Origin: Nilaparvata lugens
Lineage: Eukaryota > Arthropoda > Insecta > Hemiptera > Delphacidae
Reading direction: 5' to 3'
Assembly: GCF_014356525.2 (NCBI RefSeq)
Contig: NC_052510.1
Coordinates: 51,737,119-51,801,118, forward strand
Length of the DNA: 64,000 bases
Part shown: positions 1,350 through 54,292 of the stretch, piece after piece
Layout: each line of letters begins with the position of its first letter
Numbering within the stretch: the stretch's first letter is position 1
The notes under the pieces: generated by a model
What the model was told of the DNA's origin: nothing
Seen by the model: only the letters and a program-made list of their open reading frames with translations
Database searches by the model: none
Position numbers and translations under genes: made by a program

Positions 1350-4116
1350 CCTTTTTGCTGCACAATTGTTTTTTGCACATAGCCTCTTGCTGCGCAAATC
1401 GACTACAGTCAATTCAACTTTTTTCCTTTGAGCGCGTAAATCGACTTCAGTCCACATCAACAGAAAAACTTCTCCTTTGGTTGGTTGAATCGACAGAAGT
1501 CCCAAGTGGATAAACGCGATGTTTTCATGGCTCTGATTTGTGCTACCACCTAGTGGAATGCCTTTGAACCGACCTTAACAGACAGACTAGTCCCCAGTCC
1601 AGTGACCTAGTCAAACTGTTGAGCTAGTGAGTCGCGAGTATTTCATATTTTGAACATTATATTTCGGTTTATATCAGTTGTAAATGGTGCTAAGATATTA
1701 TGTTAGTTCAAGTTTTTTAAAGTGAGTGTGATTAGTTTTATGATGAATAAGTAATAATTTAGTGTACAGTTTTTAGTTTTGCAGTGTATCATCAATGAAC
1801 AGTAAACAATAAACATAACCTAGAAAAATGAGTAGGTCTACCAGTAGGTCTATATCAGACGATGACATTCTCGAATATTTCAATCACAACAACTATCAAT
1901 CTGGTTCAGAACTTGAAATAAGTTCATCAGATGAAGACACTTACGAAATTACACAGCCATCCACAAGTGCTAGGTCTAGGCCCCCTGTTAGGCCCACTAT
2001 TACCTGGACATAAGTAAATGTTAAAGAGAAGGAAGAAATACAATTACAAAACAATTTCAACTTTCGTGAAGACAGAAAAATTCTTTTTGAAAATTGTTCT
2101 GAAGTAGAAACATTTAAAAAATTTTTTCCAGAGCAGAACAGCTCTTTGAACATGTAGCACATCAAACCAATGAGTATGCACTACAATGTGTTGATGTAAC
2201 TTACGATATCCCTAAAAGGTCCCGATTACATAAATTGGAAGAGGTGTCAGGAAATCATATCAAAGCATTTGTAGCTGCTCAGATAGGCATGGGTCTGGTG
2301 CATAAGCCAGAAGAAGAAGGATATTTCCAAGACAGTTTCTGGCTTACAAAGACTCCAGGCTTCCAAAATATTTTCTCCAGAGATCAATACCAGCTTATCA
2401 AAAGCTTCCTACACTTCAATGATAACAGAAACCAGGTAAAAAAGGGACAGCCAGGCTATGATCCATTGTTCAAAATAAGACCATTGATTGAAATAGTTTC
2501 AGATACTTATTCAGAAAATTACTCACCAGGGGGGTTCTTATCAGTTGATGAGTCCATGATTAAGTTCAAGAGAAGACTGTCCTTTAAACAGTACCTTCCA
2601 GTGTCTTTAAACAGTGAATAGTGGGAGAGTTGTGTTTATGGACAATTTTTATAGCAGTGTGGGGCTTTTCAGTGACCTTGAAGGGTTAGGTGCATGTGGG
2701 ACAGTGAGGGCAAACCGAAAAGATCTTCCAGGCCCTATGAAAAATTTGAAGAAAAAGAAAGGTGACTTACCTTCGATTTGGCATAGCAATAAAAAAATCA
2801 TTGCTTGTACATGGCAGGACACTGGAAAGGTAAATATGCTGTCAATGGTAGGGGAGACAAGCACAAGGGAGGTGGAACTAAGAACAAAGGGAGGACAAAG
2901 GACTGTTAACAAGCCCAGCATACAAGTGCTATACAACAAGTATATGGGGGGAGTAGATTTGTTCAACAAGTTTTGTTCTACCTATAGATACAGCCATAAA
3001 TCTATGAAGTGGTATCACACTATTTGGCACTTCATAATTGAAGCTGCACTGGTGAATGGCTGTATTTCCTACAATCTACAACCAAATGTGAAACGACTCA
3101 CCCATAAACAGTACAGGGAAAATGTCATCAAGGGACTTTTAGTAGATTGGGAGGGACCAAACATTCCTGTACGTCGTGGAAGGAAATCAGGTGATACACT
3201 GCCAGAGGCAAGACTCTCAGGAAAAATTCATTTATTGAACAGTTCGAGGACAAATCTCACAAGCCGAACTGTGCAGTCTGTAGTGTATTGCCTTCAGCAT
3301 GCACAAAGAAGGAGAAAGGCTCTTGTAAAAGGAAACAGACAACTTACTATTGCAAAAGTTGTCCAGATCAGCCTCCACTGTGTGTGATACCTTGCTTTGA
3401 GGTATACCACTCAACAAAGGGGTATAAGAGAGTGTGTGAATGTTAGATGTGGGCGATAAGAACAAGAACAAAAAAATAATCATAGATTTAGATAGCCTAA
3501 GATAGATTTGCTGATAGATTGATACATATGCCAAGTATAACTAGATTAGGAAAAAGTGTTGACATTTCTTCACCATGTATAGGGTAGATAATAGGTTCAA
3601 GTTTAAAGTTGTATAGATCAATTTATTATATAAACTGAATCAGTGAGTGAAAAATTAGTGAGAATAACCAACCTGTTCATCATTACCAACTCATGACATC
3701 CACCATAATATCAATATTGGTGAGTGAAATAAGATTTTTATGTATTATTTTATACATGGGATACATCATTTCTGTATGGAATATATTATTTGTGCATGCA
3801 ATATATTTGGAAAAGTCATTTTTCAACATTAGAAAAAATTAAAACACAAAAAACAAGAAATTACTTTTTAAAATTTTTTTAGTTTTTGACACAAATACTG
3901 AGAAATTGGGCTGATTGCAAGCTAAAATTATGAAAAAATGTTCAAAACATATAGGAAACCCCTTATCTAAGGTGAATTGAAGCATAGATAGTAGAAAAAA
4001 AAAGATTGGAAATTCACCTCTGATAATGCAATATTTGGAGATTTACATTGGAAGTAATGACACAGTGAGAGGTTATTCATACAGGTCGACTATAGTCGAT
4101 TTACGTGGTGAAAAGG
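1350..4116 (+). mobile_element. piggyBac-like transposon with both ends and TTAA target duplication
   Basis: TTAA is present at 1346-1349 and again at 4117-4120. Immediately inside are inverted ends: CCTTTTTGCTGCAC on the left and, read inward from the right, CCTTTTCACCACGT. Subterminal copies of a roughly 17-base motif (AAATCGACTACAGTC and variants) lie at about 1396-1412, 1437-1453 and, inverted, 4086-4105. This is standard piggyBac architecture. The element is 2767 bp; its transposase is decayed. About 700 bp of AT-rich sequence follows the transposase up to the right end. Confidence 0.85.
1828..3387 (+). pseudogene. piggyBac-like transposase (DDE_Tnp_1_7), broken
   Basis: The N-terminal acidic segment starts at the ATG at 1828 (MSRSTSRSISDDDILEYF) and stops at 2013. 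The catalytic core follows in two further open segments, 2235-2621 and 2614-3387. The family Asp residues are visible in SVDESMIKFKRR, VFMDNFYSS and YMGGVDLFNKF. Between about 2600 and 2620 the normal stretch between the first and second Asp is missing: the text passes from the QYLP motif almost directly to the segment before the second Asp, so an internal deletion of roughly a hundred codons or less is likely. The C-terminal cysteine-rich domain is degraded after about 3250. Not functional. Confidence 0.85.
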
Positions 4117-12498: not shown

Positions 12499-12820
12499 TA
12501 CTTATTAGGAATATAATTGTAATGAATAATGTGAACAATCTTCACAATTGACCTAAGAATAGTGGATGCAAACGAACAATTATTCAAATCCATTTTTTTA
12601 TAATAATATAACAGTATGAATATTGCTTTTTAGCTAGACCTATTTTTTATGATAATAAATACTTGTTCAGAATTGGGATTAATTAATTCATTTCTTCATC
12701 ATATTGATAGAACTGAGCCAGAGTAATGAATTGCTCAAATAGAAGTATCATAGACTTCATATTGATATTACTTAGAACAAGATACAACCTACACTAAGAT
12801 CAAGTAAGATTTCATTATAA

Positions 12821-14106
12821 TGTAACCGAACTAGGGGTTGGGGTGGTGCGGCAGAAAAACAAAGATGTCCGACAAATGCTTATATTCTACACCCTTCTCC
12901 TTCGGGGCACAAGGGTGGCCTTGCCAAATTCTCTTATTAACTAACTGCAAGAATAAAACTATCTCAACAGAATATAATTACTACAGGTTCTGAAACTCCA
13001 AAATTTATACTACTAATCTTGATGAATATCAGAAATCTAAAATGAGCACAATATTTTCATTCATAAGATTTGGTTGATTAAAATAAGAGAACAATTCTAT
13101 TAGTGGTCAATACTTGTCCCAGAATCTACAAGACTATTCTACTAACTTCAATGAATATCAAAAATCTATAGCTAACACAGTATTCTCATTCAATAATAAT
13201 TGGTTAATTGAATTAAGGAACAGAACTATAAGTTGTCAATAATTGTCCCAGAATCGACAAAATTGCCCTACTAATTTCATTTAATATCAAGAAGGAAATA
13301 AACTAAAATTACACAATAAAAGATTCAAATTATAAATTCTCCAATAAGGATTCAAATGAAATTAGAAATTAAATTAACAAACTCAAAGAAAAAAACTAAA
13401 ATCGAATTAATGATTACAAAATTAAAATTGTTCAATAGCCTAATCAGATAACACATAAACTCTCCAATATAGATTCAATTTAAAATCGAAATTAAATTGT
13501 CAAAAGTCAAAGAAAAATCTAAAATTGATTAAATGATAAAAATTTAAAAATCGTTCTATAACCTAATCAAGATAACAATATCCACCGGTCATTTACTCTC
13601 TTTCTCTTTCCATTAGAAGCTATCAGAATAATTATTCAAAATTCTTGTTACTTGATCAACAAAACCGAAGGGAGCCCGCCCTAGTCTGCCTGTAGTTAAA
13701 AACAACTAATTTTGGACTGAATTCGATAATGGGTAAATGCTCGAGTTTTTCACTCACCAATCGCCATCAATAGTAAAAGAACTGATAACACCATTATGCT
13801 GTAAGGATAGTCCAGTGGAACCCATCCAGGCTGGATACGCTCGCTAACACTGTCTCTCGGCTACTGCGCCGTTTTTTAAAATTCTATTAGCAATGAGCTA
13901 ATATTTCTCTAGCCTGGGAAAAGTTTTCCCACTAGAATAAAAATCATGCCACTGTCAAGAGAGAGAAAGAGAGTACTAATTCTACTTGAGTTAGACAGAG
14001 ACACTGTCTTGCGCTGTTGCTAATGCCAGGCGCTAAAATGCTGAGGCATCAGCCATTGTTAAAATCACCATCACTTTTTCATCAATATGATTTCCACTCT
14101 ATTACA
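12821..14106 (-). repeat. 3' LTR of the RdRp-Env element
   Basis: 1286 bp, starting TGTAACCGAACTAGG and ending CTCTATTACA on the plus strand. It matches 18517-19802 with only four differences noticed (around 13264, 13281, 13722 and 13819-13821). No ORF. The polypurine tract abuts its inner edge, which identifies it as the 3' LTR for a minus-strand element. Confidence 0.93.
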
Positions 14107-14120
14107 TTACCCTCCCCTTC
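14107..14120 (-). other. Polypurine tract of the RdRp-Env element
   Basis: On the minus strand the sequence directly before the 3' LTR is GAAGGGGAGGGTAA, a purine run of the type used to prime plus-strand DNA in LTR retroelements. It lies 17 bases after the Env stop codon. Confidence 0.85.
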
Positions 14121-14137
14121 AAATAAGAGGGTGGGTT

Positions 14138-17100
14138 TCACTTGGGGAGCTTTGCTCCGTCACTTTCACAAGCACTGGAGCCTTGCTCCGTCACTGGCAC
14201 AGGATTCATCTCGATGCACTCTGCTGCTGGTTGGTCTTCGGCTGCTGATGATGGTCCTGGGGTTGGAGTAGTCACGACCTTGTGGCTTCTCCATGGCAAC
14301 TGTAGAGATCCCCTCCAGTACAGCAGGATTGCACAGGTGGTGACCGCCAAGAGGCCTCCACCAAATGCCAGCAAGATGATGGTGGTGTGCTCAGCCTCTG
14401 CCTCAAGGTCAAAATCTGCCAATCTCTGGTGGATGTTGTCCAGGGTGGTCTCGGGTAGGCCTGAGGTTCCCCTCCAATAGGGTCCCTCCTGCTTTATGTC
14501 GCTCATCAACTTCTGCAGCTCTGGTGGCCCCTGGGTGTTCCTTGGAAGTTGGAGCACCATGGGCAGGGGTGCTGCCATGGTCAATACTTGCTTGGGCAGC
14601 TCCAAATCCCCTCCAGCTCTAGTAGTTGGTAGCAGGTCATAGAGGTTGGTGGAGAGGGTACAGCCAGCTGTTGCTTTGACCTCACCAAGGCCAGTGATGT
14701 CAACTTGGGTGACGGTGGTCTTGTCTCCTTGCCGGCAGTGGGACACCAATCGCTCAGAGGTGGCCACGCTGTAGATCCACACGTTTCTGGGTCCATCCCA
14801 GATCCAGGTATCAGGGGGTTGGCCCAGTAATGCAGTTCTAGGGCAAAGTTGTAGGGCTGTGGCTGAATCCTCCAGGAACAGCGCACTCAGACAGGATAAC
14901 TGGTGACTCTTGAACACAGGCAACTGAGCTGGGCAGATGATTACCTCGCCAGGTAAACATTGGGCAAGCAGCTCTTGGGTTGGTTCTGCATATCGTTGCC
15001 GATCCTCACTGATGAGGAGGTGATGCTGGTGTAGATGCACATGGGTTGCCAGGTGGTTGGTCTGATCCGCAACCGGAATGGAATGGGCCTGAAACAACTC
15101 AAATCGCCTTCCTGCTTCCGTCAGTGGTAAGTCTACCAGGATCTTGATGATGCCATCCACTGAGATTGCCCGAGTCTGAGCTAGCCGGTAGTAGTGATAA
15201 GACTGGTCCGGCCCCTCTAACAGCCCTAACCCCCTTGGCAGACTAGTTTGGACTTTGACAAGAAGTTTCCCTAACTCATAAGGAGTGATTAAGCCTACGC
15301 TAAACTTATTCCTAGATACATTTTCTATGGCTAACAACAAATTTCTTAATTCTAATAACCCAGTCATGACCGCCAGCTCTAAGTCCTGTAACTTAGTCAT
15401 GATGTTTACTGTAATCTGTAAAAGTGTGTCATCTTTTGAGATTTTCTGATTCACCTGGTTTGCCCATGCACCAATTGCTTCTGCTTCCTTGCTGAATCTT
15501 GCCACAAGTTGTCGGATCAGTACGGTATTTGCCTGCGTTCGTCGGCTCAGCTGTCGGGTTACGGTTACGTGTTCATGCTGAAGGTGGACAATCTCTGCGG
15601 TTTGTCCCTTCAGATGCTCTATGGTTCTCTCGAGGTGCTCCACATCCTCCTGCTCAGCTGTTCCAAACAGCATTCTCATTACTTTTCCTCCCAGGTTCAT
15701 CAGGCCTCGACGAGGTCGTCCTGATGGTAATAAGTCCTTAAATGAAATATCGCATTGCTTGAGATAGTAAAGCTCGAGGGCGTAGAGCCCTGATTCGAGT
15801 GTTGCCAAGGTTAAGTTCTTCGTATTCAACAGCCTTCTGCACCAATGTTGGCACACCTTCTTAACTTGGGCTCCAAACCTGGCTGAGCGGAGATCCGTCG
15901 CTGGAGCTGGTATGTTCACCTGGCCTAAAAGGTACCGCCTGTAGACTGCCTTACTGACTCTCTTCTTGTAGTGTTTTAGCCACTCGACGAACTCAGGATG
16001 AATGTACTTTGCTTCTGTTTGGTCCTCGATGATTTGCTGCTTGATGAAGGGAAGTGCCTGGACAGCCACACCTTGGATGTTCCACAAAATGTCGGGGTCT
16101 GGGACTGGATCACACTCGTGGAAAACTTGTAGTTGTGCGCGCACGTCTACCTCCTCCCAGTCGAGCCGGACCTCCTTTGTCAAGAGTTGTGGGGTATAAC
16201 CCCATGTCTGAAGTAGATTTTGTTCAAATGCCGTCTTAATGCTACCTTTGAGCTCAATCTCATAGCGAGCGAGTCTGCTACTCCATTTACCTAAGCGGAT
16301 GTTTGTCTTGTTTGGCTCCACGATCCAAGACGGTCGCCAGTATTTTCCATCCCACTCTGTCTGTAGACGGTTACCGAGCTGGCATTGGTGTGGGATACCT
16401 GCACCACCGTATGCTGCCGGGAGGAGCATAAAGCCCAAGGCTTTATCTCTTTCTACACCTGCCTGTCTCGCATCCTCCAGCATCAACGATCCAACCTTGT
16501 CCGCGTCAGCCCCTCGCTGAATCAACAAACTCCACACAGATATGCGCCCGTACAACCTCATAGGTTTTATCAACTCCGGAACCTTGATGGGATTGCGGTA
16601 CAGGATTGAGAGCATACTTCTCGCCCTATAGCCAGTTATGGTACTAGGCTCATACGATTTTCGCAGGAATTTGGCTCTGACACGGGAAATGTATGTCTTT
16701 TCTGGGTGTACATCGTAGCCTATATAGGCGTACCATTCTATGATTCTGACAGCGTCACTGTAATTGGTTGTGGTAAAGAGTATATCATCACCCTGAGCGA
16801 TGAGGTTGTCAAAGACTACCCGACTACCTTTTTCCTCCTGCGCGAGGTCGACAATGACAAGAAAACTGCAAAGATTCAGCATAGTATCGAGGAGAGCGGT
16901 CCACCGCCAGCCGCTAGGGATGCCATTCTCCCACGTTGTCTCTCTCGCACCTATTTTCACAACTGGAGGTTGTCTGAATATGCTATCGAACAACACATTG
17001 AAGTAGTGGATGAACTCTGCGTCTTGTATTTGATGTTGAATTCCGTCCCGGAGCGCACAGAAAATTGCTTTGATGGACTTCTTGCTCTGCATATTGTCAA

Positions 17101-18403
17101 AAGAGCCTTGATCCAAGGGCACCTTATAAACTGAAGAAGACTCCATTAGGTTTACCATTCGCAAGTCGTACTCCTCTTTCTGATGCGCTGACATGAACAG
17201 TGACGATACAGGACAGTTCTTAAAACCTCGCTCTACCCATTGAGACAGGAAATTCATCAGCCTATTCGAGTGGTCACCGCATTTTACGACAGGTCTAGAC
17301 TTTCCCTGTTCACTCTTCTCCATAACTGTCATTGACTCCCTTCTCACCTTGTTCATGTCCAAAAGGACATCGTCGTCGTCAAAATATACACCTGCAACTG
17401 CTTTCATACCTTTACTGCGTTTCGTCTTGTGTGCTATTTCAACTGTTGTCTTGCCACCTGTGCCGGCCTTACCTTGAAGCCATTGGCCTGTGCTTATCCA
17501 TTCGGCTGCGCTCAAGGTTTCTTCAGGTGCCTTCCACCAAGTATCTATGACATACCTCATCTTCTTGTAGATCAAATCACAATAATAATCCTCTCCTATG
17601 TTCCGACCGATAGGTTTTTCGTTGTGTAGCCAATCTACTGCATCCTCCCACATACTGTCTAACCCAAGGTAAGGGTGGTACCCCAGCATACTTTCCCAGT
17701 AACAGTGTATTCTCCAATGTGCTGATACGTATGTGCCACCCTTCTTGTATAGTCCTGTAACCTTCTTAAAGTAGGCGCACAGCTTGCACAAACAGAAGTC
17801 GTTACTAAGTCTTTTTCTTCTGTACCATTCTTCTATGAGCGGCCTCACCTCGCTAGGGTTAGTGGAAAAGAGGTATAAATTGAAGTTGTCCTCTAAAAAC
17901 CCTTTATCAGGTATAGTTTTCTGGATATGCCGGGTATTGAATCGCCTCAGATGTTGAACAAACTTGGGTTGCTCGCTATTATACGCCCTGGGATGGTTGC
18001 AGAAACATGGTTTTTCTCGGATCTCATTGAGTAACTTGTTCTCGAATTCTTCGAATACTGCGCCGTCCCAGTTCTCATCTAGCAGCAGCCTAGTTAGACA
18101 TTTAGTAGTGCTGGCTGGGCGATCTCCTCTTGTACTGCCACCTCTGCCAGCATTCTGTTGTCTTCTCGTGCAGCCTGTTCCTGTTCTGCACGCTCGGCAT
18201 TGTCCGCATGGTGTGCAATCTCCTCTGGCTGGGGCTCCGTTAGCATGGGTCGACCGGCTCCTATAGCCTAACCGTGCCTCCGGTTTGTCGGAAGATTTTT
18301 CAAACCGAGCGGCTTGTAGATATAGTTGGACGAAATCGTGGGTGCTGCGTCCGGTGCAGGCGGTCCCGCCAACCACAGACCCGTGATAAGCTGCTTTGAG
18401 CAC
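14138..18403 (-). CDS. Fused dsRNA-virus-type RdRp and errantivirus/baculovirus-F-type Env
   Basis: One uninterrupted 1421-codon frame. Residues about 110-890 are an RNA-dependent RNA polymerase: motif F EQGKSRPVVK (about 370), motif A VPLDQGSFDN (Asp431, Asp436), motif B SGWRWTALLDTMLN (Ser497 on), motif C AQGDDILF (Gly538-Asp539-Asp540), then EKTYISRVRAKFLRKSYEP. All key acidic residues are present. Motif B resembles toti-like (Ghabrivirales) enzymes, but the family is not certain. Residues from about 893 are Env: an RPRR furin-type site, a GLMNLGGKVMRMLFGTAE fusion-peptide region, heptad helices, a VDLPLTE region typical of Baculo_F, conserved cysteines, and a membrane span near 1350-1375 with a short tail. 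No F2 fragment or signal peptide precedes the furin site. The listed start is a GTG; the frame is open to 18466 with no AUG in roughly its first 220 codons, so frameshifting, splicing or non-AUG initiation would be needed. Confidence 0.85.
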   Translation of the reverse strand: MLKAAYHGSVVGGTACTGRSTHDFVQLYLQAARFEKSSDKPEARLGYRSRSTHANGAPARGDCTPCGQCRACRTGTGCTRRQQNAGRGGSTRGDRPASTTKCLTRLLLDENWDGAVFEEFENKLLNEIREKPCFCNHPRAYNSEQPKFVQHLRRFNTRHIQKTIPDKGFLEDNFNLYLFSTNPSEVRPLIEEWYRRKRLSNDFCLCKLCAYFKKVTGLYKKGGTYVSAHWRIHCYWESMLGYHPYLGLDSMWEDAVDWLHNEKPIGRNIGEDYYCDLIYKKMRYVIDTWWKAPEETLSAAEWISTGQWLQGKAGTGGKTTVEIAHKTKRSKGMKAVAGVYFDDDDVLLDMNKVRRESMTVMEKSEQGKSRPVVKCGDHSNRLMNFLSQWVERGFKNCPVSSLFMSAHQKEEYDLRMVNLMESSSVYKVPLDQGSFDNMQSKKSIKAIFCALRDGIQHQIQDAEFIHYFNVLFDSIFRQPPVVKIGARETTWENGIPSGWRWTALLDTMLNLCSFLVIVDLAQEEKGSRVVFDNLIAQGDDILFTTTNYSDAVRIIEWYAYIGYDVHPEKTYISRVRAKFLRKSYEPSTITGYRARSMLSILYRNPIKVPELIKPMRLYGRISVWSLLIQRGADADKVGSLMLEDARQAGVERDKALGFMLLPAAYGGAGIPHQCQLGNRLQTEWDGKYWRPSWIVEPNKTNIRLGKWSSRLARYEIELKGSIKTAFEQNLLQTWGYTPQLLTKEVRLDWEEVDVRAQLQVFHECDPVPDPDILWNIQGVAVQALPFIKQQIIEDQTEAKYIHPEFVEWLKHYKKRVSKAVYRRYLLGQVNIPAPATDLRSARFGAQVKKVCQHWCRRLLNTKNLTLATLESGLYALELYYLKQCDISFKDLLPSGRPRRGLMNLGGKVMRMLFGTAEQEDVEHLERTIEHLKGQTAEIVHLQHEHVTVTRQLSRRTQANTVLIRQLVARFSKEAEAIGAWANQVNQKISKDDTLLQITVNIMTKLQDLELAVMTGLLELRNLLLAIENVSRNKFSVGLITPYELGKLLVKVQTSLPRGLGLLEGPDQSYHYYRLAQTRAISVDGIIKILVDLPLTEAGRRFELFQAHSIPVADQTNHLATHVHLHQHHLLISEDRQRYAEPTQELLAQCLPGEVIICPAQLPVFKSHQLSCLSALFLEDSATALQLCPRTALLGQPPDTWIWDGPRNVWIYSVATSERLVSHCRQGDKTTVTQVDITGLGEVKATAGCTLSTNLYDLLPTTRAGGDLELPKQVLTMAAPLPMVLQLPRNTQGPPELQKLMSDIKQEGPYWRGTSGLPETTLDNIHQRLADFDLEAEAEHTTIILLAFGGGLLAVTTCAILLYWRGSLQLPWRSHKVVTTPTPGPSSAAEDQPAAECIEMNPVPVTEQGSSACESDGAKLPK
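18094..18246 (-). CDS. Short Ala/Glu/Gln-rich ORF overlapping the RdRp frame
   Basis: A 50-codon frame with a real ATG (18246), preceded in frame by a stop, running in the 0 frame relative to which the RdRp frame is -1. It begins MLTEPQPEEIAHHADNAERA and is rich in Ala, Glu and Gln, helix- or coiled-coil-like. The overlapping RdRp frame in the same stretch is an implausible Arg/Gly/Cys/Thr mix, so this frame is the more likely real one here. It ends where RdRp-like sequence begins. A -1 relation fits the gag-to-pol layout of toti-like viruses, but I find no canonical slippery heptamer. It could be the remnant of a gag or capsid gene or a leader ORF. Confidence 0.45.
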   Translation of the reverse strand: MLTEPQPEEIAHHADNAERAEQEQAAREDNRMLAEVAVQEEIAQPALLNV

Positions 18404-18501
18404 AAAAGAGTATATGCAGCATCTTTTAAGCCCAATGTTTGTACCTCGGTATGTTCCCAGTTTTTAATATGGGTACTGAGCCCCCAGCCCCAGAAGAGAC
18501 A

Positions 18502-18511
18502 CCTGACACCA
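18502..18511 (-). other. Primer binding site, tRNA-Leu-like
   Basis: On the minus strand, five bases after the 5' LTR, the sequence is TGGTGTCAGG. This complements the 3' end (CCTGACACCA) shared by many eukaryotic tRNA-Leu species. The match does not extend beyond about ten bases. Its position is exactly where minus-strand primer sites sit. Confidence 0.7.
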
Positions 18512-18516
18512 AATTA

Positions 18517-19802
18517 TGTAACCGAACTAGGGGTTGGGGTGGTGCGGCAGAAAAACAAAGATGTCCGACAAATGCTTATATTCTACACCCTTCTCCTTCG
18601 GGGCACAAGGGTGGCCTTGCCAAATTCTCTTATTAACTAACTGCAAGAATAAAACTATCTCAACAGAATATAATTACTACAGGTTCTGAAACTCCAAAAT
18701 TTATACTACTAATCTTGATGAATATCAGAAATCTAAAATGAGCACAATATTTTCATTCATAAGATTTGGTTGATTAAAATAAGAGAACAATTCTATTAGT
18801 GGTCAATACTTGTCCCAGAATCTACAAGACTATTCTACTAACTTCAATGAATATCAAAAATCTATAGCTAACACAGTATTCTCATTCAATAATAATTGGT
18901 TAATTGAATTAAGGAACAGAACTATAAGTTGTCAATAATTGTCCCAGAATCGACAAAATTACCCTACTAATTTCATTAAATATCAAGAAGGAAATAAACT
19001 AAAATTACACAATAAAAGATTCAAATTATAAATTCTCCAATAAGGATTCAAATGAAATTAGAAATTAAATTAACAAACTCAAAGAAAAAAACTAAAATCG
19101 AATTAATGATTACAAAATTAAAATTGTTCAATAGCCTAATCAGATAACACATAAACTCTCCAATATAGATTCAATTTAAAATCGAAATTAAATTGTCAAA
19201 AGTCAAAGAAAAATCTAAAATTGATTAAATGATAAAAATTTAAAAATCGTTCTATAACCTAATCAAGATAACAATATCCACCGGTCATTTACTCTCTTTC
19301 TCTTTCCATTAGAAGCTATCAGAATAATTATTCAAAATTCTTGTTACTTGATCAACAAAACCGAAGGGAGCCCGCCCTAGTCTGCCTGTAGTTAAAAACA
19401 ACTAATTTTGGACTGAATTTGATAATGGGTAAATGCTCGAGTTTTTCACTCACCAATCGCCATCAATAGTAAAAGAACTGATAACACCATTATGCTGTAA
19501 GGATAGTCCAGTGGAACCCGTCCAGGCTGGATACGCTCGCTAACACTGTCTCTCGGCTACTGCGCCGTTTTTTAAAATTCTATTAGCAATGAGCTAATAT
19601 TTCTCTAGCCTGGGAAAAGTTTTCCCACTAGAATAAAAATCATGCCACTGTCAAGAGAGAGAAAGAGAGTACTAATTCTACTTGAGTTAGACAGAGACAC
19701 TGTCTTGCGCTGTTGCTAATGCCAGGCGCTAAAATGCTGAGGCATCAGCCATTGTTAAAATCACCATCACTTTTTCATCAATATGATTTCCACTCTATTA
19801 CA
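18517..19802 (-). repeat. 5' LTR of the RdRp-Env element
   Basis: 1286-bp partner of 12821-14106, same TG/CA ends. As the 5' LTR of a minus-strand element it should carry the promoter; the sequence is AT-rich, with GAGAGAGAAAGAGAG on the plus strand near 19655, but I cannot assign a specific promoter box. Confidence 0.93.
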
Positions 19803-20094
19803 ATAAATTCACTATGATTCGAAAATAAATATAGCATTATAATCTGAAATACTTACCAAAAAAATTTTGGTTGATCCATTCTTACAACAGTAGTCAATTC
19901 TCATGAAAATAGAAATAAAAACAGGAGCACAAAGTTATCTCACTCTCAGCAAAAGCTAATACAATGGAGTAGGCTCTATGAATAACTTATGCAGAGTAAA
20001 CTGACTGCAAAGTAAACACTGTCTAGCTCGGTACCAATTGCACAAATCAAAATTATTGTATTATCGAATTGACTACCAACATTACACATTCGAA

Positions 20095-27442: not shown

Positions 27443-29880
27443 TTGATTGTTGACACTGGGTCGTCAAAGAACTATGTGAACCCCTCTATCATACCACCCA
27501 ATGTGACCAGATATAAAGAAAAGTTCGTAGTAAAAACACCAGCCGGTGAAAGTGGTGGAAATGAATACATCTATATGAACTCAAATACTGTGTTTCCAGG
27601 AAGTTCACAAATCAAAATGTACGTGTATGACTTTTCGACAAGATACGATATCTTATTAGGTCACGAAACTTTGAAAGAACTCAAAGCCAATGTAAATTAT
27701 ACAAACAACACGTTAGATTATCGTACTATTTCGAAACCATTGTTATCAGTGATTAACTCTAATGAACAAATTCAATTGAAACCAGGATTTAATGTTGTTA
27801 CTGTACCAGTTAGGTCGATTCCTAATCTCAAGACAGGACTACTTAAAGCTGTTTCTCATGAAAGTTATTACGTTGAAGAAAGTATTGTTAGTATAGAAGA
27901 AAATAGATGTAAGTGCATAGTGTATTCCAATGAGCTCATGACCATAAGCCCCGAGCCAATGGAGATAGAAGAATTAGAAACTATTTTTGACAATGATGAT
28001 ATTGATAACTCAGATGTATCAAACAAATCGGATATTATAAGAGAAATTCCCAAACTTCTTCGGACGGACCATATGAATGTCGAAGAGCGGAAACATATCA
28101 TAAATTTAATACGGAATTTTCCTGAAATCATCAAACGTGAACATGATGAATTGACAAGTTGTACTAATCTGTTGAAATTTAAAATCAACACTACTGACGA
28201 AATCCCTGTATATTCTAAAAATTATAGATACCCTCAAGTGTTTAGGAAGGACGTTGAATTAGAAATTGACAAACTTCTTCAGAATAAAATAATTCAACAT
28301 TCCAACTCCCCATATAACAGTCCAATTTGGGTAGTGCCCAAAAAACCAGACGCCTCCGGTAAACGTAAATACGTGTCATTTTAGATTACAGGAAGATTAA
28401 TGATAAAACGATTGAAGATAAATATCCCCTCCCAAATATTGAGGACTTATTTGGAAAAATTGGAAGGGCTACCTATTTTTCAGCGATAGATCTCGCTTCT
28501 GGATTCCATCAAATTCAAATGGAAAAGGAATCAATTCCAAAAACTGCCTTTTTAACTGAGAACGGACATTATGAATTTTTGAGAATGCCGTTTGGATTAA
28601 AGAACGCTCCAGCTACTTTCCAACGTGCAATGAACATTTTGTTTTCCATGTGTTAGTCTACATGGACGACATAATTGTGTTTTCCGATAATCTCGAGGAA
28701 CACTTGAAACATCTAAAATCAGTTTTCAAACAACTGAGAGATCATAATCTAAAAATCCAACTGGACAAAACAGAGTTTTTTAAATGAGAATTACTGTACT
28801 TAGGACATATCATATCTAAACGCGGAATTCAACCCAATCCTTCAAAGCTAGAAGCTATTAAGAACTTTCCAATCCCAAAAACTGAAAAAGAAATTAAGCA
28901 ATTTCTAGGATTGACAGGCTATTATCGAAAAATGATAAAAGATTACGCTAAGATTGTAAAACCACTCACCCACGCCTTGAAAAAAGATGTTAAAATCAAT
29001 CCAAACAATCCAGAATATCAAAAGTCATTCGAAACATTAAAACTTCTATTACAAAACGATCCAATTTTACAGCTACCTGACTTCACAAAAACATTTATTC
29101 TGACTTGTGATGCTAGCAATTATGCTGTAGGTTCAGTGTTGTCACAAAAATTCAATGGTAAAACCTTCCCCATTGCATATGCTTCTCGTACACTTAATCG
29201 TCATGAAGAAAATCTTTCTACGATTGAGAAAGAATTATTAGCTATAGTCTGGTCATGCAAACATTTTCGACCATACCTCTATGGTAGAAAATTCATAATC
29301 AAAACCGATCACAAACCTCTTCAATGGCTACACAGCATTAAAGAACCGAATTCAAAATTAATTCGTATGAAACTCTTTCTAGAAGAATTTGATTTTTCAA
29401 TCCAGTATGTGGAAGGTAAATCGAACCAAGTAGCCGACGCTCTTTCAAGAATATGCCCACTTGACGTTAACATGATGGAAAATGATGAAGACAAACCTTT
29501 CCAAGGTTTCGAAAGTGGTTTTCGTGGTTTCAATCATGACTTTCAGGATCTCGAGAATAACAATGATCTCGAAGACCCCGACGAATTTGACATGGACGAA
29601 CTGCTTAGATTTAACACTAACACAGACATTCCCTCAGTAGACACCGTCACACTTGACGATTTTCTTCAACATGTAAGCAAATCTGCCGAACAAACTAACA
29701 ATTCCGATCGAGATAATATTGTAGATAATGATAATGATGATAATGATAATGATGCTAATGACCTAGAAGTTGATAATCGTAGTCTAGTTACAATACATTC
29801 ACAGGAGAGTTCGAACGAACAAGTAGTTATTGCGGAAGATGACAAAATAATCAATGTTGAACAAAATCAAATCATTTTAG
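27443..29880 (+). pseudogene. Ty3/gypsy pol: protease, RT and RNase H, broken; no integrase
   Basis: The protease starts near the left edge with IVDTGSSKNYVNPS and ends with YDILLGHETLKEL. A linker leads into RT (YSKNYRYPQVFRKDVELEI; SPYNSPIWVVPKK). The frame stops at 28382-28384; RT continues in another frame with [16 protein letters not shown] and [16 protein letters not shown], then another break near 28650 before [12 protein letters not shown], and a TGA near 28785. From 28800 the frame is open through LGHIISKRG, the RNase H region ([38 protein letters not shown]) and ADALSRI. About 140 acidic Asp/Asn-rich residues follow, partly from GAT/AAT repeats near 29727-29757. Integrase, Env and LTRs are missing; a minisatellite begins instead. 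Confidence 0.85.
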
Positions 29881-29897
29881 AACGTGGCAACAAAGAA

Positions 29898-30162
29898 CCT
29901 GTTCTCTCGCACTGCCTAACTTCGCCGTGCTTGCGCACTGCATGTGCCGGGCTTGCACCCTGCGCGGCCGTGCTCTCGCACTGCCTCACTTCGCCGTGCT
30001 TGCGCACTGCATGTGCCGGGCTTGCGCCCTGCGCGGCCGTGCTCTCGCACTGCCTAACTTCGCCGTGCTTGCGCACAGCATGTGCCGGGCTTGCGCCCTG
30101 CGCGGCCGTGCTCTCGCACTGCCTCACTTCGCCGTGCTTGCGCACTGCATGTGCCGGGCTTG
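29898..30162. repeat. GC-rich minisatellite, 69-bp unit, about four copies
   Basis: The unit runs from GTTCTCTCGCACTGCC/GTGCTCTCGCACTGCC through TTCGCCGTGCTTGCGCACTG and GCCGGGCTTGCGCCC. Four units differ only at scattered bases (for example CTAACTT versus CTCACTT). Because 69 is divisible by three, the units stay in frame with the gypsy pol ORF and add a 23-residue repeat ([20 protein letters not shown]...). Its high GC contrasts sharply with the flanks. It probably inserted or expanded at the pol truncation point. Confidence 0.9.
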
Positions 30163-30930
30163 AATAAGAAGAATAAGAATAAGAATTCTTTATTGCCGTT
30201 GAACAAAATTAATCGCAATAGGCAGTGTCAATATGCAGTAGAGCTTTAGAATACAAACATACACATAAAAAGTCATATTCAAATATGCTTAATAATAAAT
30301 ATAAGTCAGGAAACATTACAATACAATACTATCAAAATATTTAAAAATTCAATAAATATTATAAAAAAGCAGGCTATTGTAATTATTATTATTTTTGTAT
30401 GGTACTTGATAAACACCTGGAAAACCACACTGTTACTGATTATACACTAACATTTACTACATTTCAAAGCACCAAACATCATCATGATTTTAAATATTCG
30501 TCGACCGAATAGTAACCATTCTGTTTTAAAATCAAACTAACTGCATTTTTAAATCTATTAACAGGCAGGGTTTTAACATTTACTGGCAACTTATTAAACA
30601 AAGCGAATTGTAAAAACATGTGACTTTTCAAACTCTTGGTCAGTCTTATTTTAGGGGTAACAATGTTTTCTTTATTCCTTGTATTATAGGTATGGTAATC
30701 ACTGTGTCTGGGAAAGTTCTGTAATCTTTTTTTCACATGCATAACATTATATAGAATATATAAAGATGGCAAGGTCAGAATACCATGTTTAATGAAGTGT
30801 GGCTTACATGATTCTCTCTGGGGAAGGTCTAGGATAGCCCTAATAGCTTTTTTTTGCCATATGAAGACTCTCTTGTGTGTTGTCGAGTTCCCCCACATTC
30901 TAACACCATAAGCCAAATGAGAATTGGTTG
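30163..30930 (-). mobile_element. 5'-truncated LINE, RT C-terminal end
   Basis: On the minus strand a 144-codon frame (30916-30482) encodes YGVRMWGNSTTHKRVFIWQK, CKPHFIKHGILTLPSLYIL, YNTRNKENI and LFNKLPVNVKTL. It is a close relative of the C-terminus of the 929-aa LINE at 34.2-37.0 kb, so the same clade. The 3' UTR runs to an AAGAATAAGAATAAG tail near 30163-30195 on the plus strand. The 5' end is truncated near 30930. Confidence 0.8.
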
Positions 30931-34229: not shown

Positions 34230-37019
34230 TTGAAGGTTTGCGCTCTAAATATTCAATCTCTGAGAAATAAGTTACTTGAACTTGAGACTATTTTGAGTCG
34301 TAAAGAGTTTGATGTCATTTGCTTGAGTGAGCACTGGTTACGTGAGGTAGAGATTAATTTTTATGTCCCTCAAAACTTCAAACTAGCTGGTTTTTACTGT
34401 CGACCGACTCCATATGGTGGTTCTTTAATATTTGTGAGAGAAGGAATTGATTTTAATATTATTGACATTACCTCTTACTGTTATGAGGGTTCTTGTGAGG
34501 CAACAGCTGTTAGGATTGGTAGATTAAATACTCTAGTAATTAGTATTTACCGCACTCCTGGCTCCTGTTTCAGAGATTTTATGGTTAATTTGGAACAATT
34601 ACTGGAATATGTAACAAGTAAGGTAAATGGCTTTAAATTCTTGATACTAGCAGGTGATCTAAACGTAGACATTCTTAAAAATTTTGAACCAGACACACAA
34701 GAATTTTTGAATTTATTGATATCTTTCAACCTTTACTGTACGAATTACTCTCCAACTAGGTATGAGTCATGTCTTGATAATGTAATTACAAATATATCTG
34801 TGGATTATTTTAGAGTAACGCTTTTAGAACAAGGTTTAATATCTGACCATTCTGGTGTTTGTGTTTCGTTTGATCTAGAAAGAAAGTCATCTTCAAAAAT
34901 CTCTAATGAATGTAATAAATTAAATAGAGACATGACTATAAGACTTCTTACCAAGAAAAGATTGCTACATTTGAGAAAGTCTCTTATGAATATTTGTTGG
35001 GAGAAAATTTATAAAACTGACAATAATGTTGATATGGCAGTTAATAGTTTCTTAAATATCATAGTTGAATCCTTAAATCGCTCCTGCCCTAGAGTTTTGG
35101 TGAAAAATAAAAGTAAAAAACAATCCTCTTCAAAATGGCTCTCACCTGAACTGGAAAAATTACACATTCTATTATTGATTTCTTACAGTAGATTCAAGAA
35201 TACACTTAGTGAATATGATAAAGAAGTCTATAAAAATATAAGAAAGCACTACCGATTCAAGTTGAAACAAGCGAAAATAAAGGTAAATAGTGAATTTATT
35301 GCAAATGCTAATAATAGGTGTAAGGCTGCTTGGTCAATAGTCAAGAGAGAATCTAATCTCATGCCTGCTTGTAAAAAACCAATACCAATCTCTCCAAATG
35401 TATTGAATGAGCTCTTTGTTAATGTACCAACCAGAAGGTTGGATGATAGACAGGACCAAATTGATACATCATTTCAAAATTTTCTGATTAATGCTCCAAA
35501 GCCTTCACACAATTTTAAACTTAAGACAATTGATAAGTTAACCGTTAAATCCATTGTTAATAGAATGAGTAATTCTCGTAGTGAAGATGTGTTTGGAATG
35601 TCTAATTACTTGATCAAAGAAATAATTGACTCAACCTTGCTTCCTCTAACATATATTATAAATTTTATTATTGTCATGGGCTACTTTCCGGATTGTTTGA
35701 AAGTGTCCAGTGTTACACCTGTTTTGAAAAAAGGAGATCCAAAAAATCCTGAAAATTACAGACCAATTGCTCTTGTGCCTATCATCAGTAAAATAATAGA
35801 ATTTTGTCTGCTAATGCAACTCTATGAATATTTCATTTTCAATGGCTTATTATATCCCCATCAATATGGCTTTAGACCAGGTCACTCTACAATAGATGCT
35901 GTTGAGAAAATTGTAGACTTTGTACATCAATGTTTTGAAAATAAATGTGCAGTAGGGGCAACCCTATTAGACCTTAGCAGAGCATTTGAGAGAGTTTCAC
36001 ATGTGATTCTCTGCAAAAAACTAGAGTATTATGGTATAGTTGATAGAGAGTTAAAGCTATTGAAAGGTTATTTGGTTGGCAGAAAACAAATGGTAAAGTG
36101 TGCAGGTAAATGCTCTGATGTATTGAACATAAATACAGGTGTACCTCAAGGATCGGTCCTTGGGCCTTTCCTTTTTCTGGTTTTCGTAAATGATTTCAGT
36201 TTCAATATACCAGGTCTTTCGGTATTGTATGCTGATGACACCTCAATAATCCAATCAGATGTTGAAATCGAAAAACTTCAGGATAAACTTGACATTTCCT
36301 TGAATCAGGCAAAATCATGGTATTTATCTAATGACCTAGAATTAAATGAGCAGAAAACAGAGAAAATAACATTTACATTAGGGCATACTCTGAACCACAA
36401 TAATCTTAAGCCTGTCAAATTACTAGGTGTAATATTGGATGGTAAACTCTGTTGGGAGGAACATGTGAATAGTCTCTGTAAAAAACTTTCAAGGGTAACA
36501 TACCTCCTCAAGAGATTAAATAGTTCTGTTAATCTGCAAGTATTGTTGATAACCTATCACAGACTTTTCCATTCTCATCTTGGTTATGGGATAAGAATGT
36601 GGGGCAATTGCCCAACACATAAAAAAGTTTTCATATGGCAGAAAAGGGCAGTTAGAGCTATTTTGAACCTTTCCCCAAGAGAAACTTGCAAGCCTCACTT
36701 CATCAAACTGGGTATACTGACTCTGCCATCTCTATATATATATTCCAATTTGATAAGTGTAAGGAAGAATTCTAACAACTTTCACAAACATAATGAATAT
36801 CATGCTTACAATACTAGGAATAGGGAAAAAATTATGAAACCAAATCTCAGATTGAGTAAGAGCATGAAAAGCTACCCCTATTTACAGTTGTTATTTTACA
36901 ATAAACTACCAATTGAAGTTAAGAACCTGCCTCAAGAAAAATTTAAAGTTGCCATTTCACAAATGCTAAAAGAAAAGGCTTACTGCTCTACTGAAGAGTT
37001 TTTAATTGATAGCATATAA
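34230..37019 (+). CDS. LINE ORF2: AP-type endonuclease and reverse transcriptase
   Basis: A 929-codon open frame. Endonuclease motifs: ALNIQSLRNK, CLSEHWL, SIYRTPGS, LAGDLNVDI and LISDHSGVCV, in order over residues 1-215. RT motifs: ENYRPIALVPIISK, YGFRPGHSTIDA, motif A TLLDLSRAFERV (AFE instead of the usual AFD), motif B GVPQGSVLGPFLF, motif C LYADDTSI. The C-terminal part has WGNCPTHKKVFIWQKR, CKPHFIKLGILTLPSLYI and YNTRNREKI. The listed start is a TTG; the frame is open upstream past 34149 with no AUG, so translation may depend on reinitiation or frameshift from the SGNH frame 75 bases upstream. No internal stop, so possibly active. Confidence 0.9.
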   Translation: MKVCALNIQSLRNKLLELETILSRKEFDVICLSEHWLREVEINFYVPQNFKLAGFYCRPTPYGGSLIFVREGIDFNIIDITSYCYEGSCEATAVRIGRLNTLVISIYRTPGSCFRDFMVNLEQLLEYVTSKVNGFKFLILAGDLNVDILKNFEPDTQEFLNLLISFNLYCTNYSPTRYESCLDNVITNISVDYFRVTLLEQGLISDHSGVCVSFDLERKSSSKISNECNKLNRDMTIRLLTKKRLLHLRKSLMNICWEKIYKTDNNVDMAVNSFLNIIVESLNRSCPRVLVKNKSKKQSSSKWLSPELEKLHILLLISYSRFKNTLSEYDKEVYKNIRKHYRFKLKQAKIKVNSEFIANANNRCKAAWSIVKRESNLMPACKKPIPISPNVLNELFVNVPTRRLDDRQDQIDTSFQNFLINAPKPSHNFKLKTIDKLTVKSIVNRMSNSRSEDVFGMSNYLIKEIIDSTLLPLTYIINFIIVMGYFPDCLKVSSVTPVLKKGDPKNPENYRPIALVPIISKIIEFCLLMQLYEYFIFNGLLYPHQYGFRPGHSTIDAVEKIVDFVHQCFENKCAVGATLLDLSRAFERVSHVILCKKLEYYGIVDRELKLLKGYLVGRKQMVKCAGKCSDVLNINTGVPQGSVLGPFLFLVFVNDFSFNIPGLSVLYADDTSIIQSDVEIEKLQDKLDISLNQAKSWYLSNDLELNEQKTEKITFTLGHTLNHNNLKPVKLLGVILDGKLCWEEHVNSLCKKLSRVTYLLKRLNSSVNLQVLLITYHRLFHSHLGYGIRMWGNCPTHKKVFIWQKRAVRAILNLSPRETCKPHFIKLGILTLPSLYIYSNLISVRKNSNNFHKHNEYHAYNTRNREKIMKPNLRLSKSMKSYPYLQLLFYNKLPIEVKNLPQEKFKVAISQMLKEKAYCSTEEFLIDSI

Positions 37020-37380
37020 CGTTTTCTACTTAGAATAAAAATGTGACTTACATTGTAAGAATAGTATTGTGATTACTATGTTATGACTTTATATAGTAGT
37101 ACTAGTTGTAGTGTTAGTCTTTGTGTTTCTCTTTTAATATATTACAAATTGCTATTTATCTATATGCTGTGTAAATGTAATGTTTCGAAATATTTTGCTA
37201 TACCTACTGATATTATTGAAAATGTTCATTCAAGTTTTATTAAGAATAAGATGTTGACGAAAAATGTATTTATGCTAGTGACTTACATCATGTAATCTTG
37301 AACTTTTGACGAGGCCTGAAATGTACTGTACAAATGTATTTATTGGTCAATAAAACAAATTTATTTATTTATTTATTTAT
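37020..37380 (+). other. 3' UTR and (TTTA)n tail of the CR1-like LINE
   Basis: Non-coding sequence ends with GGTCAATAAAACAAATTTAT and a TTTATTTATTTATTTAT microsatellite up to about 37380. Most of this UTR (from 37097) is repeated at 38850-39133 by the tandem duplication. Confidence 0.8.
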
Positions 37381-38430
37381 CACAAAGAAAACAGCATTAT
37401 CCAGTATAAATCCTCACCCAGAGCAGTAAACAGAGGTGTGCCCCAAGGGACTATACTCGGACCTCTCTTATTCCTTATATATATAAATGACCTCCCATAT
37501 GAAATAGATAGCAGAAACAAGTGCATACTGTTTGCGGATGATACTACTATACTTGTACCACATAATAATCAGGAGCCAAATGTAACAGTCGAAGCACTGA
37601 AAGAAGCCACCCAAAAATGCAATAGACTGGACCTCACTATAAATAACAGAAAACAGTACACATAAAATTCCAACCTACAAACAATAGCCTGGAAGTTCCC
37701 CTAAATAGCCAAACCTCACATACAAGATTCTTGGGAATCATCATCGACCAGAACCTAACATGGCAGCCCCACATTGAACAACTAAGTAAGAAGTTATTGT
37801 CTGCAATCTATGTAATTCGACGCATGACAAGTATAACAGGTGACAAGACAGCACTAACTGCATATCATGCCCTGTTCGCTTCACACATGAGATATGGCAT
37901 AGTAGCCTGGGGCTCAGCATCACAAATACACCTCAACAAAATACTACAAAAGAGAGCACTTAGAACTATTCTTGGAATGAACATAGCAGAGCACTGTAGA
38001 CCACTCTTCAAAAAATACAAACTACTCACCGTGATCTCTCTGTACATCCTGGAAGCAACGATTCTGGCAAGGAAAGCTAAACCACAACAGCGGGGCGACT
38101 AGCATGGATACAGAACAAGGAATTCCAAAAACATACACCTTCCACAACACCTACTGAAAAAATATGAAAACTCACCAGCCTATGCGGGAGCCTACTTCTA
38201 TAACCTGCTACCAGCTACCTTGAAGGCCCTGGAAGACTAAAGGCTCTTCTCTGCTGCATTGAAGCATTATCTGACAGCCAGGCCTTACTATGCGCTGTCA
38301 GAGTACATCCGGGACCACACCTATCAGCATCTGGCAGGACGTGCGGCTGACAACATTCACTGACCTCCTCAAGCATGAGGAAATACTGACAATTCCCGGT
38401 CACCGACTGTGGCGAAGACTGAACAAGTAA
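37381..38430 (+). pseudogene. LINE RT C-terminal remnant, copy 1
   Basis: 5'-truncated in front of RT motif [34 protein letters not shown], then a stop at 37663-37665 and a frame shift. The thumb continues at 37731-38102 (GIIIDQNLTWQPHIEQLSKK, HMRYGIVAWGSAS, CRPLFKKYKLLTVISLYIL), then a stop and a last frame with YFYNLLPATLKALED. It differs in sequence from the CR1-like LINE beside it. Decayed. Confidence 0.8.
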
Positions 38431-38439
38431 GTAAGGATC

Positions 38440-38850
38440 CAACATGAACAATTTCGATCAACTGCAATTTAAGATGGCGGCGAAAATGTTGTCAGAAACA
38501 GGGTTTTTCGCGTTTCGCGATCAAGTTTATACCAAAAATAGTCATCGATAAGCTCTATCAACTGCCACAAGTCCCATATCTGTAGCAACGTTTAGGAGCT
38601 CCGCCCCATCTATGCTAAGTTTGATTTTAGATTCTCAATTATCAGGCTTCAGATAAAATTTCAAATGGAAAAGATTGAGAATGAAAATCTCTACAATTAA
38701 TGTTCAGTAACATTTTCACCTAAAATTGAAAATAAGCTTGAAATTCGAGAAAATGTGATTATTCAATTGCAAACTGTTGATTCTATTAAATCATTCACTA
38801 TGAAGAGATAGCAGACCTCGTGTGTCTCCAGCTGGCTCAGATCTTTGGAT
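38440..38850 (+). repeat. Dispersed repeat, truncated copy 1
   Basis: AACAATTTCGATCAACTGCA through GATAAGCTCTATCAACTGCC to CAGATCTTTGGATAGTAC; same family as 31.3-31.9 kb in opposite orientation. It is cut at its 3' side by the tandem-duplication junction. Confidence 0.75.
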
Positions 38851-39133
38851 AGTACTAGTTGTAGTGTTAGTCTTTGTGTTTCTCTTTTAATATATTACAA
38901 ATTGCTATTTATCTATATGCTGTGTAAATGTAATGTTTCGAAATATTTTGCTATACCTACTGATATTATTGAAAATGTTCATTCAAGTTTTATTAAGAAT
39001 AAGATGTTGACGAAAAATGTATTTATGCTAGTGACTTACATCATGTAATCTTGAACTTTTGACGAGGCCTGAAATGTACTGTACAAATGTATTTATTGGT
39101 CAATAAAACAAATTTATTTATTTATTTATTTAT

Positions 39134-40183
39134 CACAAAGAAAACAGCATTATCCAGTATAAATCCTCACCCAGAGCAGTAAACAGAGGTGTGCCCCAAG
39201 GGACTATACTCGGACCTCTCTTATTCCTTATATATATAAACGACCTCCCATATGAAATAGATAGCAGAAACAAGTGCATACTGTTTGCGGATGATACTAC
39301 TATACTTGTACCACATAATAATCAGGAGCCAAATGTAACAGTCGAAGCACTGAAAGAAGCCACCCAAAAATGCAATAGACTGGACCTCACTATAAATAAC
39401 AGAAAACAGTACACATAAAATTCCAACCTACAAACAATAGCCTGGAAGTTCCCCTAAATAGCCAAACCTCACATACAAGATTCTTGGGAATCATCATCGA
39501 CCAGAACCTAACATGGCAGCCCCACATTGAACAACTAAGTAAGAAGTTATTGTCTGCAATCTATGTAATTCGACGCATGACAAGTATAACAGGTGACAAG
39601 ACAGCACTAACTGCATATCATGCCCTGTTTGCTTCACACATGAGATATGGCATAGTAGCCTGGGGCTCAGCATCACAAATACACCTCAACAAAATACTAC
39701 AAAAGAGAGCACTTAGAACTATTCTTGGAATGAACATAGCAGAGCACTGTAGACCACTCTTCAAAAAATACAAACTACTCACCGTGATCTCTCTGTACAT
39801 CCTGGAAGCAACGATTCTGGCAAGGAAAGCTAAACCACAACAGCGGGGCGACTAGCATGGATACAGAACAAGGAATTCCAAAAACATACACCTTCCACAA
39901 CACCTACTGAAAAAATATGAAAACTCACCAGCCTATGCGGGAGCCTACTTCTATAACCTGCTACCAGCTACCTTGAAGGCCCTGGAAGACTAAAGGCTCT
40001 TCTCTGCTGCATTGAAGCATTATCTGACAGCCAGGCCTTACTATGCGCTGTCAGAGTACATCCGGGACCACACCTATCAGCATCTGGCAGGACGTGCGGC
40101 TGACAACATTCACTGACCTCCTCAAGCATGAGGAAATACTGACAATTCCCCGGTCACCGACTGTGGCGAAGACTGAACAAGTA
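39134..40183 (+). pseudogene. LINE RT C-terminal remnant, copy 2
   Basis: Near-identical to 37381-38430, with the same two frame breaks at the same positions. The disabling mutations therefore predate the duplication. Confidence 0.8.
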
Positions 40184-40192
40184 AGTAAGGAT

Positions 40193-40720
40193 CCAACATG
40201 AACAATTTCGATCAACTGCAATTTAAGATGGCGGCGAAAATGTTGTCAGAAACAGGGTTTTTCGCGTTTCGCGATCAAGTTTATACCAAAAATAGTCATC
40301 GATAAGCTCTATCAACTGCCACAAGTCCCATATCTGTAGCAACGTTTAGGAGCTCCGCCCCATCTATGCTAAGTTTGATTTTAGATTCTCAATTATCAGG
40401 CTTCAGATAAAATTTCAAATGGAAAAGATTGAGAATGAAAATCTCTACAATTAATGTTCAGTAACATTTTCACCTAAAATTGAAAATAAGCTTGAAATTC
40501 GAGAAAATGTGATTATTCAATTGCAAACTGTTGATTCTATTAAATCATTCACTATGAAGAGATAGCAGACCTCGTGTGTCTCCAGCTGGCTCAGATCTTT
40601 GGATAGTACACTTGAGATGCGCGTGAACACTAGCAACAGGTGATCAATAATTCTCATAACATCAAAGAAAAGTTGTGTGAGTGCGCCACACCAGATTTTT
40701 ACATTTGTTATAGCCTACAC
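40193..40720 (+). repeat. Dispersed repeat, copy 2, extending further
   Basis: Same as copy 1 up to GGATAGTAC but continues with ACTTGAGATGCGCGTGAACA and on to about 40720, showing what the unduplicated repeat end looks like. Confidence 0.7.
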
Positions 40721-53935: not shown

Positions 53936-54292
53936 AAGTTATATAGATAGATGTAGATACCAACTGATAGACTGAGGGCCGTTTTCTCCACATGGTGTGC
54001 TTGCCCTTAATATGTAGATAGCATTTTTAAACTCCCATAAAAAAATGATATTTCCCAATAACCTTCGGTTATCACCTCTTTTTAGGGGTGCAATCATGTT
54101 ATGCTGCATAACCATTGTGTCCTGTTTGCAAACGATGTTACTTGCAAACAATCCTCCTTACCATTCTAGGGTAAATAAGCATTTCACAACTGTTAGGGTT
54201 GACCATACTCATGCAAATTATCTGATACAGACAGAATAATGAAATTTGAATTTCAAAGTCTTTTGCTTATTTATTAGCTCATTGTATAATTG
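53936..54292. other. Spacer between duplicated blocks
   Basis: About 350 bp with no recognisable content. It contains CAACTGTTAGGGTTGACC near 54187, but no repeat boundary was found. Confidence 0.35.

Follow-up and report, generated by a model that had tools for sequence, protein, structure and literature searches.

How the RNA-dependent RNA polymerase (RdRp) of an RNA virus came to lie between two long terminal repeats (LTRs), in frame with an envelope (Env) protein, is the question raised by a stretch of 64,000 nucleotides on contig NC_052510.1, attributed to the planthopper Nilaparvata lugens and referred to as a whole as the window. The unit in question is complete at positions 12821-19802 on the minus strand, with its 5' LTR at the high-coordinate end. 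It is a defective LTR provirus without gag and pol, in whose interior a toti-like RdRp continues in frame into most of an Env. The sequence itself shows the LTR pair with its target-site duplication, an RdRp that is nearly complete and the F1 part of Env, and between the two proteins a joint at Lys-Asp-Leu residues common to both parents. The most probable origin is copy-choice capture of the RdRp by an env-bearing LTR element before integration, with replacement of gag-pol.

Anatomy of the LTR unit

Each LTR is 1286 bp long (3' LTR, 12821..14106; 5' LTR, 18517..19802; both minus strand) with ends TGTAA...TTACA, and the pair differs by 4 substitutions and 0 indels; repeat comparison also revealed internal direct repeats carried by the 5' LTR. 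The unit is flanked by a target-site duplication, ATAA, at 12817-12820 and 19803-19806, the chance of such a 4-mer match at this composition being 0.005. The LTR alignment and the flanks bear out all that a preliminary description of this DNA had said of the repeats, namely their length, four differences, TG/CA ends and ATAA duplication. Two LTRs, TG..CA ends and a target duplication identify the unit as an LTR element or endogenous retrovirus. The divergence of the LTRs (4/1286, 0.31%) corresponds to a rough age of about half a million generations, if each site changes at about 3e-9 per generation as in other insects. The LTR identity of 99.7% points to a young insertion, in which no selection is needed to account for an open frame.

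Candidate priming sites of the right kind are present at the expected places. The polypurine tract (PPT) GAAGGGGAGGG, to which this role is assigned by position, is located 3 bases inside the 3' LTR (14110..14120, minus strand). The primer-binding-site (PBS) candidate TGGTGTCAG, located 5 bases inside the 5' LTR (18503..18511, minus strand), is presumably tRNA-Leu-like. The interior comprises 4410 bases, 4266 of them within one frame; since the remainder amounts to only 113 and 31 bases, there is no room for gag-pol. A Pfam profile search found no match to reverse transcriptase, protease or integrase in either half of the frame (P0001 and P0002). The unit therefore lacks the gag and pol of an autonomous element, its interior being the RdRp-Env frame plus 144 bases.

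This anatomy bears on the possibility that the structure was created during assembly, by misjoining of an LTR element to a contig of a virus or of an endogenous viral element (EVE). The region is rich in repeats, including some longer than 1 kb at 37097-40609 and 50437-56719, but a mis-join is not expected to yield two complete LTRs that differ in their outer flanks and share a target duplication, nor an in-frame joint at residues common to both parents. An assembly artefact is thus highly improbable.

The fused RdRp-Env frame and its parents

The fused frame, identified in the list of open reading frames (ORFs) and their translations, occupies 14138..18403 on the minus strand and has 1421 codons without a stop. 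Its length and continuity are as first described, while three points required correction: it lies on the minus strand, starts with GTG and has its earliest in-frame ATG at codon 239 (17689). The stop-free run extends over 1441 codons, whereas shuffling the interior 500 times by mononucleotide gave none longer than 251.

The toti-like RdRp is located at 15728..18058 (minus strand; frame residues 116-892) and is near-complete, covering 777 of the 780 residues of its nearest relative, a 780-amino acid protein from a 6276-base contig (P0003). This alignment has no gap and 659 identical residues, or 84.8% overall, with 490/585 and 169/192 in the two halves of the frame. The polymerase reported in the preliminary description was recovered by profile search of the RdRp half, with matches to RdRP_4 (E=1.1e-13) and RdRP_1 (1.5e-7), both over the curated Pfam cut-offs; its motifs are not spurious, and GDD of motif C is present at 16784..16792 (minus strand). 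Based on the RdRP_4 profile, motifs A-C and similarity to toti-like RdRps, it can be classified as a toti-like RdRp, which we place, as an assumption, in Ghabrivirales. A protein search with the first frame half (P0001) returned 12 relatives, among them Shuangao toti-like virus at 36% identity, and a comparison of nine relatives indicated that 90 of 91 invariant residues are kept, as counted over P0001 past residue 116. Sequence search of PDB gave no significant match for the RdRp (best E 0.35), and IMG/VR gave no RdRp match, its alignment-based search yielding 3 pattern matches with 0 confirmed.

The predicted structure is consistent with this assignment. An AlphaFold model of frame residues 1-700, based on a ten-row alignment, has a mean predicted local distance difference test (pLDDT) score of 78, which is high from about residue 110 on and low in residues 1-104. 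Among viral models, the RdRps of Dumyat virus and Shuangao toti-like virus ranked first and third, with a TM score by query length of 0.76 and a root-mean-square deviation of 2.8 A. The best 50 matches listed in PDB are viral polymerases, including those of hantavirus, rotavirus, picobirnavirus and norovirus, with E values from 4e-11 to 4e-9 and TM scores by query length of only 0.30-0.48. A putative RdRp activity of the fused product is possible. Frame residues 1-104 were rejected as a protein region in view of the low model confidence and their near absence from the aligned relatives, and are treated as an out-of-frame capsid end plus leader.

The Env part (14141..15739, minus strand), delimited by alignment and Baculo_F, comprises F1 together with the 11 residues that lead up to the cleavage site. 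These 533 residues form the end of the whole frame and correspond to residues 189-721 of its second half (P0002). They align with residues 106-638 of N. lugens LOC120354909 (638 amino acids; P0015) with 525/533 identical and 8 differences, a similarity which by itself suggests N. lugens or a near relative as the source of the window. The second frame half matches Baculo_F over the Pfam cut-off (E=1.3e-10); a furin-type site, RPRR, at 15707..15718 (minus strand) is followed by GLMNLGGKVMRMLFG, which we take to be fusion-peptide-like, and hydropathy indicated one strong membrane span at 14315..14386 (minus strand). The protein is therefore errantivirus-like, and the Baculo_F match, the furin site and the membrane span stand as first described, except that the Env is not complete: residues 1-105 of the parent, comprising a signal-peptide-like start and most of F2, have no counterpart. 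The start of the parent is hydrophobic and signal-peptide-like by eye, without being flagged at the 19-residue hydropathy cut-off. Searching PDB by sequence gave no match for Env, and its structure model (mean pLDDT 34.7) is uninformative.

In Laodelphax striatellus, the protein LSTR_LSTR001697 (P0016) contains sequence related to the C-terminal part of Env, fused to other sequence, with 49% identity across 38% of the query. The Env lineage is thus present in another planthopper as well.

Alignment with the two parents places the RdRp-Env joint, Lys-Asp-Leu(-Leu), at 15728..15739 (minus strand). At this point the viral RdRp ends in ...LKQCDVLFKDLILAP (...FKDLILAP), the Env parent reads ...LEEAGQALKDLLPSGRPRRG (...ALKDLLPSG) and the fused frame reads ...LKQCDISFKDLLPSGRPRRG (...FKDLLPSG). 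Lys-Asp-Leu (15731-15739) occurs both at the end of the viral RdRp and in the Env parent, and the crossover lies inside it, 4 residues short of the C-terminal end of the viral RdRp. A 1087-residue query spanning the joint matched six proteins, five RdRps and one Env, none of them an RdRp-Env fusion (0/6), in a search that scored only the 7991 candidates with most words in common. The separate protein searches for RdRp and Env relatives (12 and 2 matches) were restricted to lengths that shut out a fusion of 1421 residues. On the other side, similarity to the viral RdRp extends to about 18091 (relative P0004). A 50-codon frame, one base off, at 18097..18246 (minus strand; stop at 18096-18094) stops directly before this similarity begins, as would a capsid gene overlapping the RdRp. 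It may be a remnant of the capsid gene end, although Pfam gave no match for the 49 of its 50 codons that were searched.

Origin and present role of the element

That an env-bearing LTR element captured an RdRp of dsRNA-virus type, as proposed in the preliminary description, is supported by the clean parent-to-parent joint, the LTR pair and the target duplication. Under this scheme, element RNA and toti-like viral RNA would have entered the same particles, formed by an intact relative that bears env. Reverse transcriptase, copying the element RNA from its 3' end, would have crossed from env to virus at the common stretch, copied the RdRp plus little more, and switched back to the leader close to the border between capsid and RdRp. 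The hybrid complementary DNA (cDNA) would have retained the sites for strand transfer and integration and completed both LTRs, and the integrase of the relative would then have inserted it at ATAA. In acutely transforming retroviruses, foreign RNA likewise replaces retroviral genes while the LTRs are retained and a helper is needed, the foreign gene in that case being host-derived.

Alternatively, DNA repair could have introduced a toti-like cDNA into an env-bearing LTR element that was already integrated, gag, pol and the env start being deleted meanwhile. The microhomology at the joint would also suit end-joining repair, and N. lugens is rich in toti-like EVEs, of which 22 are reported (PMC10636211). 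However, this scenario requires that one resident element underwent both an insertion and an extensive deletion and nevertheless kept its LTRs, its PBS-like and PPT-like sites and a frame open across the joint, which makes such a later insertion unlikely.

Several points weigh against capture before integration, or against parts of it. A single locus leaves room for viral cDNA entering a resident LTR element. Of the two joints, only that between RdRp and Env is resolved, and since the parents were compared as proteins, it is resolved at the protein level only. The Env parent is known as a protein from a chromosome-size contig of 105.7 Mb, and its place in an LTR element is presumed. One of the 91 invariant RdRp residues is altered, a simple scan found no slippery heptamer in the leader, so that the RdRp has no obvious route of expression, and the piRNA role discussed below is borrowed from other loci.

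As for the present role of the captured copy, it may be transcribed from its LTR today, and since it is without pol, its movement would need a relative acting in trans. A simple pattern scan of the leader found neither a slippery heptamer nor a 5' splice donor. Given the first ATG at codon 239, the absence of a slippery site and the loss of the Env start, a working Env product is unlikely, and only splicing or a different start would yield the RdRp at full length. With a frame lacking an early ATG and an Env lacking a signal peptide, the element acts most likely as RNA and, by analogy with other planthopper loci, its present effect is most likely that of a source of antiviral PIWI-interacting RNAs (piRNAs).

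Retention of the intact 1421-codon frame, of the predicted RdRp fold and of the catalytic residues could also be attributed to selection on a working RdRp-Env product aiding the element or the host, for example if it copied element RNA or interfered with a toti-like virus. However, the LTR identity of 99.7% points to a young insertion, in which the frame could be open without selection, and neither the late first ATG nor the missing Env start is what such a product would need, so that a function of this kind is distinctly improbable. It is likewise quite unlikely that the locus represents a young multi-copy env-bearing LTR family, mobile in trans, in which a working dsRNA-virus RdRp stands in place of gag-pol and copies RNA in the host; if true, this would mean a retroelement spreading an RNA-virus replicase through the genome.

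Known systems and significance

The combination of RNA-virus sequence with LTRs and other transposon genes within the window characterises the locus as a non-retroviral EVE, and the position of the RdRp inside one LTR pair makes it one of the eBxnv-1 kind. In eBxnv-1, a nodavirus RdRp lies within a degenerate Bel/Pao LTR element of Bursaphelenchus xylophilus (Cotton et al. 2016, PMC5177903). With that element published earlier, RdRps within LTR elements are not without precedent, and the statement in the preliminary description that no LTR family encoding an RdRp had been described has to be qualified by this 2016 publication; it holds in so far as eBxnv-1 is a single copy and not a family. 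No other RdRp inside an LTR element was recognised in the literature surveyed, although the eBxnv-1 authors mention one previous capture in nature that had been reduced to its terminal repeats (PMC5177903). Both elements have an RNA-virus RdRp between two LTRs and no gag, PBS and PPT sites of eBxnv-1 having candidate counterparts in the present element, and copy-choice during reverse transcription was also proposed for eBxnv-1 (PMC5177903). That element, as described, has a shortened, divergent nodavirus RdRp of 570 amino acids, retains a degenerate pol, shows LTR identity over just 132 nt and has no close exogenous virus (PMC5177903). In contrast, the element studied here has a near-complete toti-like RdRp, no pol, an in-frame fusion to a Baculo_F Env and 1286-bp LTRs, near relatives of both parents are known and the RdRp-Env joint is resolved. 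New in this case are the identification of close relatives for both parents, the resolution of one joint, the loss of gag-pol, the intact Env fusion and the LTR identity of 99.7%.

The toti-like EVEs of N. lugens, NlToEVE1-22, belong to the same virus group and probably to the same host, and their presence varies among 256 individuals (Huang et al. 2023, PMC10636211). NlToEVE5 is RdRp-derived and has an intact ORF in its transcript (PMC10636211). According to the same paper, only viral motifs and no other domains were predicted in the ToEVE ORFs, a remark which is neither clearly for nor against identity of the present locus with NlToEVE5. The terms 'LTR', 'long terminal repeat' and 'gypsy' are absent from the main text of PMC10636211, and 'retrotransposon' occurs there only in the title of a reference. 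The majority of planthopper ToEVEs yield small RNAs of 24-29 nt, exceptions being NlToEVE13, NlToEVE14 and SfToEVE1 (PMC10636211).

Other retroelements have acquired genes of RNA viruses. Anakin elements of mosquitoes are likewise LTR elements with a gene from an unrelated RNA virus, in this case BEL-Pao elements with a chuvirus glycoprotein; there the glycoprotein was added to a Pao element, whereas here a polymerase stands in place of gag-pol (PMC7642597). A viral superfamily 1 (SF1) helicase, also an RNA-virus replication domain tied to retroelement proteins, occurs in insect retrotransposons, including Jockey long interspersed nuclear elements (LINEs) of N. lugens; these cases differ in involving a helicase and not an RdRp, and in being LINEs or, in Aedes and Leptopilina, Ty1/Copia fusions (PMC5563155, PMC6338049). 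Chimeric cDNAs of LTR retrotransposons and viruses in infected insects provide a precedent for the mechanism (PMC6338049).

The remainder of the window contains further mobile elements and repeats. Two fragments of DDE_Tnp_1_7 (piggyBac-type) transposases are located at 2614-3387 and 43928-44638; a piggyBac also lies between NlToEVE3 and NlToEVE4 on Chr2 (PMC10636211). Part of another retroelement occupies 27443-30167, with an RT_RNaseH frame at 28911-30167 (E 3.9e-39) and, at 27443-28384, a weak hint of Peptidase_A3B (E 0.095), and a LINE-type frame of 929 codons at 34230-37019 encodes endonuclease and reverse transcriptase. A frame at 32664-33584 matches an Ulp1-type protease (E 1.3e-9), with a FLYWCH match slightly below the cut-off. 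In the segment 37097-40609 a unit of about 1.76 kb is duplicated in direct tandem with 99.8% identity, reflecting recent duplication or an assembly effect, and at 50437-56719 nested direct repeats of 1.2-2.2 kb (91-98% identity) form a tandem array whose subrepeats are spaced by about 145 bp.

The entry into genomes of RNA viruses that lack reverse transcriptase has mostly been inferred from broken remnants near retroelements. At this locus the product has survived nearly whole: both LTRs and the target duplication are present, the viral polymerase frame is open, and the joint falls on residues common to the two parents. If the reading holds, the element is an unusually intact case of a retroelement acquiring an RNA-virus replication gene, and would be a strong natural case of copy-choice capture. 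Since N. lugens is cultured and has been sequenced in many populations, copy number, joints, polymorphism and small RNAs are directly testable. The element would equally be a strong case of an RNA-virus replication gene taking the place of gag-pol, comparable to the replacement seen in oncogene-carrying retroviruses.

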